DNA from: Faecalibacter sp. LW9
GTDB taxonomy: Bacteria; Bacteroidota; Bacteroidia; Flavobacteriales; Weeksellaceae
Assembly: GCF_034661295.1 (NCBI RefSeq)
Contig: NZ_CP141062.1
Location: 2,542,001 to 2,606,000, forward strand
DNA: 64,000 nucleotides
Direction: 5' to 3'
Position 1 is the first letter of the stretch. Each line of letters starts with the position of its first letter. The position numbers and the translations under genes were made by a program. The notes under the pieces were generated by a model that saw only the letters and a program-made list of their open reading frames with translations, searched no databases and was not told the DNA's origin. This document shows, piece after piece, positions 26,645 to 42,936 of this stretch.

Positions 26645-27430
26645 TTATTCTCCTTTAAAAACTGGATTTCTTTTTTCTAAGAATGCATCAACTCCTTCTT
26701 GGTAATCTGAAGTTTTACCTGCCTTATCTTGAAAAATCCCTTCTTGTACTAATTGTTCTTCGATTGAATTTTGGAACGTTTGGTTTAATAATTTCTTCGT
26801 GTACGCTAAACCTTTCGTTGGTAAGTTCGCTAATTTTGAAGCTAATTTTGAAACTTCTTCTTCGAATGAATCATCTGTATAGAATTCGTATATCATTCCA
26901 ATTTCTTTGGCTTGAGCCGCAGAAACTTTGTCAGCTAATAGCATCATTGCAGATGCACGTTGCATTCCAATTAAACGAGGTAAGAAATAAGTTCCTCCAC
27001 AATCTGGAATTAAACCAATTTTTGAAAAAGCCTGTATAAAATTTGCTGATTCTTTTGCAACAACGATATCACATGCTAAAGCTAGATTTGCACCTGCTCC
27101 AGCTGCTACACCGTTAACAGCCGCAACAACTGGTTTATCCATATTTCTAATTTTTAGAACTAATGGATTGTAATTTTCTGTTACAATTTTGTTGAAGTCG
27201 ATGTCTTTCTCTTCTAACACTTCACCCAAATCTTGACCAGCGCAAAATGCTTTTCCTGTAGCCGTTAAAACGACTGCACGAACAGAAGAATCTTGAGTTG
27301 CAACATCCAATTGATGTTGAAGTGAATGAATCATTTCGTGGTTAAAACTGTTAAAGACCGAAGGACGATTCAACGTAATCGTAGCAATTCCTCCTTCTTG
27401 TGTGTATAGGATTGATGTTGAATTTTCCAT
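26645..27430 (-). CDS. paaG: PaaG, epoxyphenylacetyl-CoA isomerase
   Basis: A 261-residue crotonase-family enzyme: GKAFCAGQDLGEV (about 59-71), NGVAAGAGANLALACD (about 105-120), and KIGLIPDCGGTYFLPRLIG, which is the PaaG-type active-site loop with the catalytic Asp. It converts ring-1,2-epoxyphenylacetyl-CoA to oxepin-CoA. It lies 6 bases after paaD and 3 before paaH. Confidence 0.93.
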   Translation of the reverse strand: MENSTSILYTQEGGIATITLNRPSVFNSFNHEMIHSLQHQLDVATQDSSVRAVVLTATGKAFCAGQDLGEVLEEKDIDFNKIVTENYNPLVLKIRNMDKPVVAAVNGVAAGAGANLALACDIVVAKESANFIQAFSKIGLIPDCGGTYFLPRLIGMQRASAMMLLADKVSAAQAKEIGMIYEFYTDDSFEEEVSKLASKLANLPTKGLAYTKKLLNQTFQNSIEEQLVQEGIFQDKAGKTSDYQEGVDAFLEKRNPVFKGE

Positions 27431-40817: not shown

Positions 40818-40943
40818 ATGACAATGACACAAAAAGAATTTAATTTAGCAGAACAAATTGAGAAATTAAAATGTCCAAAACATAGTTTATTAAAGAGACA
40901 AAACAGAGAAAAGAAAAAAAGAAGAAATAATGCAAAATCATAA
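40818..40943 (+). CDS. Small basic protein of 41 residues
   Basis: ATG at 40818 opens a 41-codon frame, MTMTQKEFNLAEQIEKLKC then PKHSLLKRQNREKKKRRNN. The strongly basic C-terminal half suggests nucleic-acid or ribosome contact, but the family was not recognised. A promoter-like TTTG...TATATTTA lies upstream around 40775-40800. It is immediately upstream of the tyrS leader. Confidence 0.5.
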   Translation: MTMTQKEFNLAEQIEKLKCPKHSLLKRQNREKKKRRNNAKS

Positions 40944-40946
40944 AGA

Positions 40947-40979
40947 TTTGGCAAATTGAAAAACTTGTTTATATCTTTG
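40947..40979 (+). promoter_or_regulatory. Promoter of the tyrS leader
   Basis: TTTG (40947-40950), 21 bases, then TATCTTTG (40972-40979): a perfect fit to the Bacteroidota housekeeping promoter. Transcription would start about 40984-40987, at or next to the ATG of the leader ORF. Confidence 0.7.
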
Positions 40980-40984
40980 TCGAA

Positions 40985-41074
40985 ATGAAATTTTTAAATT
41001 GCATATTACGTCTTCCATTTTTTAATGACTATTATTTCACAATAATGGTTCGGAAAGATTATGCCTATTTTTAA
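40985..41074 (+). CDS. Candidate 29-residue Tyr/Phe-rich leader peptide of tyrS
   Basis: ATG at 40985 to TAA at 41072 encodes 29 residues: MKFLNCILRLPFFNDYYF at the start, VRKDYAYF at the end. Four Tyr and six Phe occur, including a tandem TAT TAT pair (codons 16-17, 41030-41035) and DYAYF at the end. It is the only ORF between a strong promoter and the terminator in front of tyrS. An internal ATG at 41045 would give a 9-residue peptide. If the promoter call is right, the mRNA may be leaderless at the first ATG. AT-rich DNA favours Tyr and Phe codons, so the bias alone is not proof. Confidence 0.45.
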   Translation: MKFLNCILRLPFFNDYYFTIMVRKDYAYF

Positions 41075-41116
41075 AATTTTATTTTTATAGAATACTGTTA
41101 TTAGATATAATCATAA

Positions 41117-41151
41117 AACCGAACAAGTTCCCACTTGTTCGGTTTTTTTTT
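41117..41151 (+). terminator. Terminator/attenuator hairpin in front of tyrS
   Basis: A perfect 12-bp stem AACCGAACAAGT / ACTTGTTCGGTT (41117-41128, 41133-41144), loop TCCC, then a T-run to 41151. tyrS starts at 41163, so no promoter fits between and the gene must be reached by read-through. The 5' arm contains CCGAAC (41119-41124), complementary to GTTCGG at 41048-41053 in the leader ORF, a possible antiterminator. Confidence 0.75.
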
Positions 41152-41162
41152 GCTCAAAATTT

Positions 41163-42365
41163 ATGAAAGAATTAAACATTTTAAAAGAAAACGTAGAAAT
41201 CATTTTACCTCAAAATGGTTTGGAAGAAAAGTTACGTTTAGCTGAAAAAGAAAATCGTCCATTACGCATCAAACTTGGGTTTGATCCTACTGCACCTGAT
41301 TTACATTTAGGTCATGCAGTCGTCTTAAAAAAACTTAAACAATTTCAAAATTTAGGTCATCATGTGATAATCTTAGTCGGAAGTTTTACTGCTCGTATTG
41401 GTGATCCAACAGGTAAAAACAAAAGCAGAAAACCCCTTAGTATTGATGAGGTGAATCTCAATGCGAAAACTTACATCAATCAACTTTCTAAAATTTTAGA
41501 CCTAGATAAAACTAAAATTGTTTTTAATTCCGATTGGTTAGATGCTATCCCTTTTTCAGAAGTCATACAGCTTTTATCGAAAGTTACCGTCGCTCAATTA
41601 ATGCATCGAAACGATTTCAATAAACGCTTTACTGAAAATACACCAATCGCCATGCACGAATTAGTTTATCCGATATTACAAGGCTATGATTCTGTAGAAA
41701 TTGAAGCAGATATCGAAATGGGTGGAACTGATCAAATGTTCAATTGTACGATGGGAAGACAATTGCAAGAACATTTTAATCAATCACCACAGATTGTAAT
41801 GTGTATGCCTTTACTAAAAGGGTTAGATGGGAAAGAAAAAATGAGTAAATCCTTAAACAACATCATTGGTTTAACAGACGAACCCAATGATATGTTTGGA
41901 AAAACCATGTCAATTCCAGATCATTTAATTGAAGAATATATATTATACACTACAGACTTTAGTTGGAATGAAAAACAATTATGGATTGAAAAATTACATA
42001 GCGGTGCACATCCAATGGATGTGAAAAAGGTAATTGCTAAAAACATCATTCAACAATATCACAATGAAGCTGCAGCTGAAACAGCTGAAATGTTTTTTGT
42101 GAATCAGTTTCAAAATAAAAAATTTGAAGAGAAAGCATTTGAACCAATATCAATAGTACACTTCGATGAAAAGAATATAAAACTCGTGGATTTCTGCCAT
42201 ATTTTAAAAAACACTGACACGAAGTCAGCCATTAGAAGATTAATTGAAAGTGGTGCAGTTCAAATCAACCAAGAAAAAATACAAGATCCTTACTTGAATA
42301 TAGCATTAACGATTGGCATGAAAATAAAAATTGGAAAACGTCTTTTCTATGAAATTGTCGCATAA
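41163..42365 (+). CDS. tyrS: Tyrosyl-tRNA synthetase
   Basis: A 400-residue class I synthetase. The HIGH-type motif is HLGH (48-51), KMSKS is at 226-230, IEADIEMGGTDQMFN is the tyrosine-binding segment, and the C-terminal 65 residues form an S4 RNA-binding domain. The KMSKS form and length place it with the TyrZ-type enzymes. It charges tRNA-Tyr. Its control appears to involve the upstream leader and hairpin. Confidence 0.97.
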   Translation: MKELNILKENVEIILPQNGLEEKLRLAEKENRPLRIKLGFDPTAPDLHLGHAVVLKKLKQFQNLGHHVIILVGSFTARIGDPTGKNKSRKPLSIDEVNLNAKTYINQLSKILDLDKTKIVFNSDWLDAIPFSEVIQLLSKVTVAQLMHRNDFNKRFTENTPIAMHELVYPILQGYDSVEIEADIEMGGTDQMFNCTMGRQLQEHFNQSPQIVMCMPLLKGLDGKEKMSKSLNNIIGLTDEPNDMFGKTMSIPDHLIEEYILYTTDFSWNEKQLWIEKLHSGAHPMDVKKVIAKNIIQQYHNEAAAETAEMFFVNQFQNKKFEEKAFEPISIVHFDEKNIKLVDFCHILKNTDTKSAIRRLIESGAVQINQEKIQDPYLNIALTIGMKIKIGKRLFYEIVA

Positions 42366-42366
42366 A

Positions 42367-42396
42367 AAAAAAGGAGTTCATGATGAACTCCTTTTT
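42367..42396. terminator. Bidirectional terminator between tyrS and the DUF493 gene
   Basis: AAGGAGTTCA / TGAACTCCTT (42371-42380, 42384-42393) flanked by A- and T-runs, between convergent genes. Confidence 0.9.
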
Positions 42397-42397
42397 C

Positions 42398-42724
42398 TTA
42401 TAACATTATAACATCGGGTATAGTAGCAACCTCTTGGTAAAATTGAATGACTTGGTCTGAATCTAATGCATAGATTTGCACAGAGATAGAGGTATATTTT
42501 CTATTTTTTGATGCTTTATAATCAAATGTTGGATTGGAATGATCAAAAATCGATTTGATTTTTACCATGGTTTCTTCACTTGTAGGATAGATAAATTTGA
42601 AAGTATAATCCGCAGGAAAAGACGTTACATCATCTAATCTTTCTTTGAATTTTACATAAAAATCTTCTTTATTTAAATGATCTCCATCATTAATATTCTG
42701 GAAATTGATATTCATATCACTCAT
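42398..42724 (-). CDS. DUF493 (YbeD-like) protein
   Basis: A 108-residue protein resembling DUF493/YbeD: FYVKFKERLDDVTSFPADYT, then KFIYPTSEE, and ASKNRKYTSISVQIYALD. The family has an ACT-like fold and a suggested regulatory role; function is unproven. It is convergent with tyrS and shares the bidirectional terminator. Confidence 0.8.
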   Translation of the reverse strand: MSDMNINFQNINDGDHLNKEDFYVKFKERLDDVTSFPADYTFKFIYPTSEETMVKIKSIFDHSNPTFDYKASKNRKYTSISVQIYALDSDQVIQFYQEVATIPDVIML

Positions 42725-42776: not shown

Positions 42777-42804
42777 AAATTTCATATTAATATAAATGAA
42801 ATTT
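42777..42804. repeat. AT-rich inverted repeat upstream of asnB
   Basis: AAATTTCAT (42777-42785) and ATGAAATTT (42796-42804) are exact complements in the 212-base asnB/DUF493 divergent gap. Given the AT content its meaning is uncertain. Confidence 0.3.
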
Positions 42805-42936
42805 TGTCATAAATTTTATTTTTTAAACCATATTTGTTATTATAATTTATTTTATAAATTATTTATTTATTTTATATTCATTTTAAACAATACAACACAC
42901 ATATTTGCTGTAATTAATAAATAAATTAATACTGAT

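Follow-up and report, generated by a model that had tools for sequence, protein, structure and literature searches.

A stretch of 64,000 nucleotides from the genome of Faecalibacter sp. LW9, here called the window, contains on its forward strand a gene for a tyrosyl-tRNA synthetase (TyrRS), tyrS (41163..42365), preceded by a short leader. Judged by its Pfam matches (tRNA-synt_1b, 2e-75; S4, 1.3e-05) the product of 400 amino acids is a class I TyrRS of the KMSKS type with an S4 domain, and it is the second, auxiliary copy in this genome; the housekeeping copy (G000:C1:731609-732445) is 32% identical to it over the match and carries KFGKS instead of KMSKS. An earlier note on this DNA had named tyrS as the regulated gene; it is the auxiliary and not the housekeeping TyrRS gene. 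The leader comprises, on the same strand, a Bacteroidota-type promoter (40947..40979), an ORF of 29 codons (40985..41074; MKFLNCILRLPFFNDYYFTIMVRKDYAYF) with tandem Tyr codons at positions 16 and 17 as the predicted stall site (41030..41035), a GTTCGG motif (41048..41053) and an intrinsic terminator (41115..41151). Directly upstream lies a small basic ORF of 41 amino acids without a Pfam match (40818-40943), and the end of a similar ORF is found at the equivalent place in the Faecalibacter macacae contig (locus L002, genome G001). Downstream, a hairpin (AAAGGAGTTCATGATGAACTCCTTT; 42366-42400) between tyrS and a convergent DUF493 gene resembles a bidirectional terminator used by both. An ORF of 42 amino acids with an AsnAsn pair (42796-42924), located just before an asparagine synthase-like gene (asnB), was considered as an attenuator too and dropped, as there is no terminator between the two; the AsnAsn pair is probably due to chance in AT-rich DNA.

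The leader and the auxiliary gene occur together. The leader, defined as the ORF plus GYTCGG plus a complementary terminator arm, accompanies the close tyrS copies (at least 66% identity; L001-L014, L031-L109 and L111-L136) in all but one of the 119 loci examined, and a search for related loci contributed the best 80 of 160 matches; an alphaproteobacterial MAG whose TyrRS is 56% identical and which has no leader (L110) was excluded beforehand. The leader-bearing loci belong to genera of the Flavobacteriia, Sphingobacteriia, Chitinophagia and Cytophagia. Removal of 15 leaders that are identical to another over 140 nt left 103 distinct leaders, from which 49 representatives were picked by k-mer distance. 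The one miss among the 119 loci, at which ORFs were selected for a Tyr pair, is L133, where this pair is now Tyr-Leu. The alignment of relatives that the earlier note had proposed thus revealed the Tyr codons, the GTTCGG/CCGAAC covariation and the hairpin alike, and instead of relatives with the hairpin but without a Tyr-containing ORF or a covarying antiterminator, which the note had named as speaking against its reading, the opposite was found, even the sole exception keeping antiterminator and hairpin. The leader of L133 (1319-1483), which reads ILRVPFFSEYLLP, may sense something else or may be decaying.

Within the family of the window's genome the auxiliary tyrS is found in 135 of 320 genomes and in 5 of 33 genera, and a covariance model of the leader matches at E 1e-12 or better in 134 of these 135 genomes (in G205 on contig ends); the exception is G226, where the gene runs off the contig end. 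Whether leader and gene adjoin was read off at each of the 119 loci; for the family genomes it was compared by eye in a handful only. Among 60 relatives searched, the auxiliary copy (at least 69% identity) is present in 13 of the 14 genomes of the genus, the window's own included and G005 being the one without, and in one genome of another genus; strong matches to a leader-peptide profile (E <1e-9) occur in 14 of the 60 and only at auxiliary tyrS. The same profile gave a strong match in one of the 395 genomes of a class sample, the window's own. In a phylum sample, 272 of 395 genomes have a TyrRS match at E 1e-60, and the leader model (E 1e-8, strict filters) found the leader in only three, all of the window's family, the other 269 TyrRS genomes being without such a leader; the TyrRS outside these three are 41-49% identical among the matches listed. 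No strong match ahead of any other gene was seen in the relatives, the family or the 395-genome samples, where the family and phylum runs used strict filters that lose weak matches and the family run lists only the best matches. Sharing of the leader by the housekeeping tyrS was ruled out, as none was seen upstream at four housekeeping loci and the leader model, run over these and 16 further ones, had its best score, 24.6 bits, at a distance of about 1 kb from the start of the gene, versus 113.8 bits in the window. Three weak matches of the peptide profile (L203, L205 and L206) look like chance and were discarded. Two others, L204 and L207 (G938:C7:24448-24480 and 27107-27139), lie 2.7 kb apart, and in both the match to the leader peptide extends as far as the Tyr pair; the former reads YILRLPFFSKYY and stands after a CACTTCC-type repeat and before an ORF of 115 amino acids, with no terminator or tyrS in the stretch shown.

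Named relatives with the auxiliary gene include Chryseobacterium, Gelidibacter, Winogradskyella, Sphingobacterium, Chitinophaga, Runella and Telluribacter, and the auxiliary TyrRS of Faecalibacter macacae (Weeksellaceae) is 81% identical to that of the window. In a TyrRS tree that is poorly supported overall, Sphingobacterium yanglingense groups with Vaginella and a Flavobacterium (three rows, SH-aLRT 81), a suggestive placement only, according to which the auxiliary TyrRS may have passed between classes. A search for plasmid carriage of the auxiliary tyrS returned 13 records, all below 60% identity and none of a Bacteroidota genus by name. In genome G160 a strong leader is followed by a truncated auxiliary tyrS of 87 amino acids (L141, 1496-1930), the only strong leader without an intact gene, and in genome G083 the leader (MKTLNNILLLTFSPYYY) has decayed, its terminator is broken and tyrS is missing downstream (L142, 2831-2996). 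From these two cases the leader seems to decay together with the gene.

The 29-codon ORF with tandem Tyr codons that the earlier note had pointed out in the window recurs, YY included, at 118 of the 119 loci, with the peptide consensus M-K-x-L-N-x-I-L-R-L-P-F-F-S-x-Y-Y. All 103 distinct leaders contain the Tyr pair; the ORFs were chosen for containing YY and [ILVM]L, so that this pair is partly a matter of selection and the remaining peptide is not. For the 49 representatives pN/pS is 0.22 over codons 2-17 and falls to 0.08 in codons 7-13, the ILRLPFF segment (41003..41023; pN 0.050 versus pS 0.605), as expected for a translated ORF; it is 0.00 for the YY codons, in part because of the way the ORFs were chosen, and 0.97 for codons 18-21, which owing to indels are not strictly homologous between clades. 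In 59 Chryseobacterium-type leaders that share one frame the corresponding values are 0.03 for codons 7-13 versus 1.38 for codons 18-30; the low pS of the latter (0.153) presumably reflects RNA constraint by the antiterminator. These values argue for selection on the leader peptide at the amino acid level up to the Tyr pair, with none detected beyond it. The further Tyr codons in the DYAYF end of the ORF, to which the earlier note had also drawn attention, are there in the window and are not a conserved feature, since Tyr is absent beyond codon 17 in 13 of the 103 leaders. Since a pure codon sensor needs no conservation of the peptide ahead of the Tyr pair, it is plausible that the nascent ILRLPFF chain, which is strongly conserved at the amino acid level, contributes to the stall as a candidate nascent-chain element; TnaC- or ErmCL-like arrest peptides have conserved nascent residues that the stall requires, and of this the conservation is seen in the leader.

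In the window the terminator hairpin spans 41115-41146 with 14 pairs in a hairpin scan, so that the strong terminator of the earlier note is there but its count of 12 bp is not; CCGAAC (41119-41124; segment 3) lies in its 5' arm and GTTCGG (41137-41142; segment 4) in its 3' arm, followed by the U-run. The tyrS ATG at 41163 is 16 nt past the stem and, as previously noted, 11 nt past the T-run. Over the 49 representatives 98.3% of the terminator cells are paired, with double changes at 7 of 10 pairs and none of 500 shuffles doing as well. The complementarity of the upstream GTTCGG (41048-41053; segment 2, the 5' strand of the antiterminator) to CCGAAC of this 5' arm, also seen in the earlier note, was confirmed: its core of six pairs (2:3) is intact in all 49 representatives. 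The one variable pair of this core, which carries its compensation, is U-A in 26, C-G in 22 and U-G in one of them, and among the 103 distinct leaders U-A in 71, C-G in 31 and U-G in one (102/103 Watson-Crick). Anchored motifs located GYTCGG with a complementary arm in every one of the 103 leaders. They replaced a simple hairpin finder, which failed to detect 7 of the 103 terminators and paired 12 of the other 96 with the wrong site; as these motifs accept only pairable letters at most of their positions, the free test is that one variable pair and the unforced count is the 49/49. Sliding the partner by one column lowers the paired 2:3 cells from 89% to under 49%, and paired cells, double-change cells and covariation score were each reached by 0 of 500 shuffles. 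On two of the five covariation measures 2:3 is unexceptional (pairs with double changes, 236/500 shuffles; pair types, 247/500). The variable pair changed about five times on the poorly supported TyrRS tree, a modest number of compensatory events with which a sign (independent-pairs) test has no power.

The position of the antiterminator suits a stall at the Tyr pair. In all 103 leaders the first base of GYTCGG lies 63-67 nt past the A of the ATG and 12-16 nt downstream of the Tyr pair, in two different reading frames (36 versus 67 leaders); in L108, which is one base shorter between YY and GYTCGG than its relative L049, the peptide is altered and the element kept. Occurring at this distance in two frames, GYTCGG is therefore conserved as RNA rather than as peptide. 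The antiterminator duplex has a stability of -10.6 kcal/mol versus -4.5 kcal/mol in shuffles, of which 26 in 5150 were equally stable; for the window none of 50 linker shuffles matched it.

Folding of the 178-nt window leader from the ATG to tyrS gives -36.3 kcal/mol, whereas 200 shuffles give -20.9 (sd 3.25; z -4.7); the terminator dominates the structure. When transcripts are ended just past segment 3 and a ribosome is placed on the Tyr pair, the computed probability of the antiterminator is 0.99 on average and at least 0.94 (n=103), compared with a mean of 0.46 for free RNA of the same length, below the YY-ribosome value in 103 of 103 leaders, and of 0.40 with the ribosome at the stop codon, below it in 100 of 103; shuffling the linker at constant composition lowers the pairing of the terminator 5' arm from 0.997 to 0.43. 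With segment 4 added to the transcript, the terminator prevails at equilibrium, with a mean of 0.99 both in free RNA (minimum 0.77) and in the presence of the YY ribosome (minimum 0.23). Attenuators commonly behave in this way, the decision falling before segment 4 is completed. Since the terminator wins at equilibrium even with a stalled ribosome, the predicted switch requires co-transcriptional kinetics and must be decided during the transcription of segment 4. These calculations do not account in full for the 'off' state, as the free transcripts of L006-L008 already favour the antiterminator (0.91-0.96) and the window retains an antiterminator probability of 0.67 with the ribosome at the stop codon (0.05 for 2:3 in the free transcript).

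In that free transcript segment 2 of the window is mostly paired upstream, and its possible partner is segment 1 (GCATATTACGTCTTCC; 41001..41016), which overlaps codons 6-11 and could pair with segment 2 and its 3' flank as an anti-antiterminator. Across the set 76.7% of the cells of this 1:2 helix are paired, against at most 48.5% when it is slid and with 6 of 500 shuffles reaching 76.7%. Pairs with double changes are no more frequent in it than in shuffles (278/500), RNAalifold yields no consensus 1:2 structure for the leader without its terminator, and the helix depends on the clade in the folding calculations, Chryseobacterium and the other clades using different parts of it as judged by eye. 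A role of 1:2 as anti-antiterminator is thus possible but unproven; the Tyr pair would sit in the loop of the putative helix, which a stalled ribosome would be expected to block.

The promoter consists of TTTG at 40947-40950 in the -33 region and of TATCTTTG at 40972-40979, a -7 box of the TAnnTTTG form. The earlier note had called it a consensus promoter, which is apt for the Bacteroidota box and does not hold for a sigma-70 site, where it scores 9/12 and such sites are no more frequent than in shuffles. Of the 103 distinct leaders 91 have a TAnnTTTR box 4-9 nt 5' of the leader ATG, which ends in G in 66 cases, whereas 2.3% of composition shuffles have one 3-10 nt before this ATG. The box has been positioned at -12 to -5 in F. 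psychrophilum (PMC9723704), which would place the transcript start of the window leader at about 40984 with a 5' UTR of about 1 nt; with the box 4-9 nt before the ATG in 91 of 103 leaders, the predicted 5' UTR is only about 0-5 nt across the relatives and the leader mRNA is probably near-leaderless. That the promoter sets the start at the first ATG had been regarded as a weak point in the earlier note; recurring in these 91 leaders, it is none. Such 5' ends are rare in Bacteroidota, where about 3.7% of the 5' UTRs of B. thetaiotaomicron are shorter than 10 nt (PMC7366714) and leaderless mRNAs make up 5.5% of those examined in F. psychrophilum (PMC9723704).

Taken together, a short ORF with tandem cognate codons, an intrinsic terminator before the gene and a competing antiterminator are all found at the level of sequence and folding, and we consider it quite probable (roughly 0.86) that the leader is a ribosome-mediated transcription attenuator of the auxiliary tyrS. 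The idea of the earlier note that a ribosome stalled at the Tyr pair leaves GTTCGG free to pair with CCGAAC is supported by conservation, covariation, geometry and the in silico switching of the incomplete transcript. RNA polymerase would initiate at about 40984 and a ribosome would load on the near-leaderless AUG. With enough Tyr-tRNA it would pass the Tyr pair, 3:4 would form and transcription would end in the U-run about 11-16 nt before tyrS. With Tyr-tRNA in short supply, through tyrosine starvation or inhibition of the housekeeping TyrRS, the ribosome would stall with codon 16 or 17 in its A site and its leading edge just ahead of GTTCGG; segment 2 would then capture segment 3 ahead of the synthesis of segment 4, the terminator would come too late and the auxiliary TyrRS would be produced. 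Translation of the leader, the stalling, tyrosine as the signal and the help of the ILRLPFF chain in the stall are what we infer from these features.

A hairpin between two genes might also be nothing but the terminator of the upstream gene, with tyrS transcribed from elsewhere and the leader ORF an accident of AT-rich DNA. The 41-amino acid ORF on the same strand does end at 40943, and terminators are common in general. Yet, as seen by eye, leader and hairpin are retained while the sequence 5' of them varies from genus to genus and among some congeners, from which it follows that the terminator belongs to the leader-tyrS unit; we rejected this explanation on that ground, and with the leader ORF under purifying selection and the 16 nt from the stem to the ATG leaving no room for a promoter it is scarcely credible. 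Sensing without a translating ribosome, either of uncharged tRNA directly by a T-box or through autoregulation by TyrRS, has a precedent in tyrZ of B. subtilis, which is under a T box and a MarR regulator (as cited in PMC9437257). It would leave the coding constraint and the Tyr pair unexplained, however, and no known Rfam cis-regulatory element, the T-box included, could be assigned: the 64-kb window has no Rfam match at the gathering score, none of the 15 sub-gathering matches at 40900-41300 (E up to 10) is a T-box, and the Phe_leader match in the leader reaches 15.2 bits versus a gathering score of 55. We regard this explanation as highly improbable.

What remains to be weighed is the part played by the peptide. 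The Tyr codons alone may matter, a version of the attenuator rather than an alternative to it, in which the peptide is kept for the sake of RNA segment 1 or of initiation on a near-leaderless mRNA. Codons suffice in the trp, his and phe leaders of E. coli, and in some of the leaders segment 1, overlapping codons 6-11, is able to pair around segment 2; but with synonymous change as frequent as it is in codons 7-13, RNA constraint alone does not explain the peptide, and we think that sensing by codons alone is possible with the odds against it. Conversely, ILRLPFFSxYY may be an arrest peptide that acts through the same RNA switch and is triggered by a small molecule or by mischarged Tyr-tRNA (with D-Tyr, for instance) instead of by a lack of Tyr-tRNA. 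Amino acid-level constraint that is found before and not after the stall codons is closer to arrest peptides than to the trp and his leaders, and speaks for this; starvation alone, on the other hand, explains both the Tyr stall codons and the TyrRS gene, and such a ligand- or chain-dependent arrest appears unlikely to us. A tentative proposal, to which we give a little less than even odds, combines the two kinds of signal in a hybrid attenuator: the conserved peptide MKxLNxILRLPFFSxYY would set up the stall, and the near-leaderless mini-ORF would read a codon signal, the supply or quality of Tyr-tRNA and perhaps its mischarging with D-Tyr, together with a nascent-chain signal, switching on a spare and possibly inhibitor-resistant or more selective TyrRS, with leader and gene travelling together between classes of Bacteroidota.

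In the trp, his and phe leaders of Proteobacteria tandem cognate codons are combined with mutually exclusive antiterminator and terminator structures and a stem followed by a U-run, and the tyrS leader shares all of these features. It differs from them in the amino acid conservation before the stall site, in probably having almost no 5' UTR, and in a 1:2 pairing that is weak or clade-specific. The closest analogues in purpose would be auxiliary or duplicated synthetases under leader-peptide control. One is the auxiliary, antibiotic-resistant TrpRS of Streptomyces, whose gene trpRS1 has an attenuator (Vecchione and Sello 2010, as cited in PMC4787780) and is likewise an auxiliary aminoacyl-tRNA synthetase gene under ribosome-mediated attenuation; attenuators of trpS2 and leuS are also described in Streptomyces (PMC1262725). 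As far as the description goes, the tyrS leader is set apart from trpRS1 by another amino acid and another phylum, by a peptide that is itself conserved over several classes and by an apparently near-leaderless mRNA. The other is given by the hisS paralogues of Bacilli, duplicated synthetase genes with His leader peptides, of which other copies have a T-box; they differ in belonging to Firmicutes and in using several His codons in a row (Naville and Gautheret 2010, PMC2965389). Until that find, leader-peptide systems had been known to these authors from Proteobacteria and Actinobacteria only (PMC2965389).

In F. psychrophilum, which belongs to the same class as the window's genome, 'strong clues' for leader-peptide attenuation have been reported upstream of amino-acid biosynthesis operons, along with structured 5' regions at aminoacyl-tRNA synthetases, and some of the elements, including those that precede pheA, hisG and alaS, recur in other genera (PMC9723704). 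The earlier note did not recall attenuation for a Tyr synthetase in Flavobacteriia, and this holds only in part, since leader-peptide attenuation as such had been suggested there for biosynthesis operons, whereas section 19 of that paper makes no mention of tyrS, an auxiliary TyrRS or a conserved leader peptide (PMC9723704). Among the matches listed in a search of the full-text literature, in which few subscription journals are covered, we found no description of a leader-peptide attenuator of a TyrRS gene or of a conserved leader peptide in Bacteroidota. The leader is of interest for its conserved peptide, its predicted near-leaderless start and its association with an auxiliary TyrRS; leader-peptide attenuation in flavobacteria had already been suggested.

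If the attenuator is what it appears to be, Bacteroidota would gain a defined and compact amino-acid sensor at a synthetase gene, and the tyrS leader would be a test case for nascent chains that help amino-acid attenuators to stall. Chryseobacterium and its relatives would possess an inducible spare TyrRS, which may signal exposure to natural TyrRS inhibitors or to mischarging stress.
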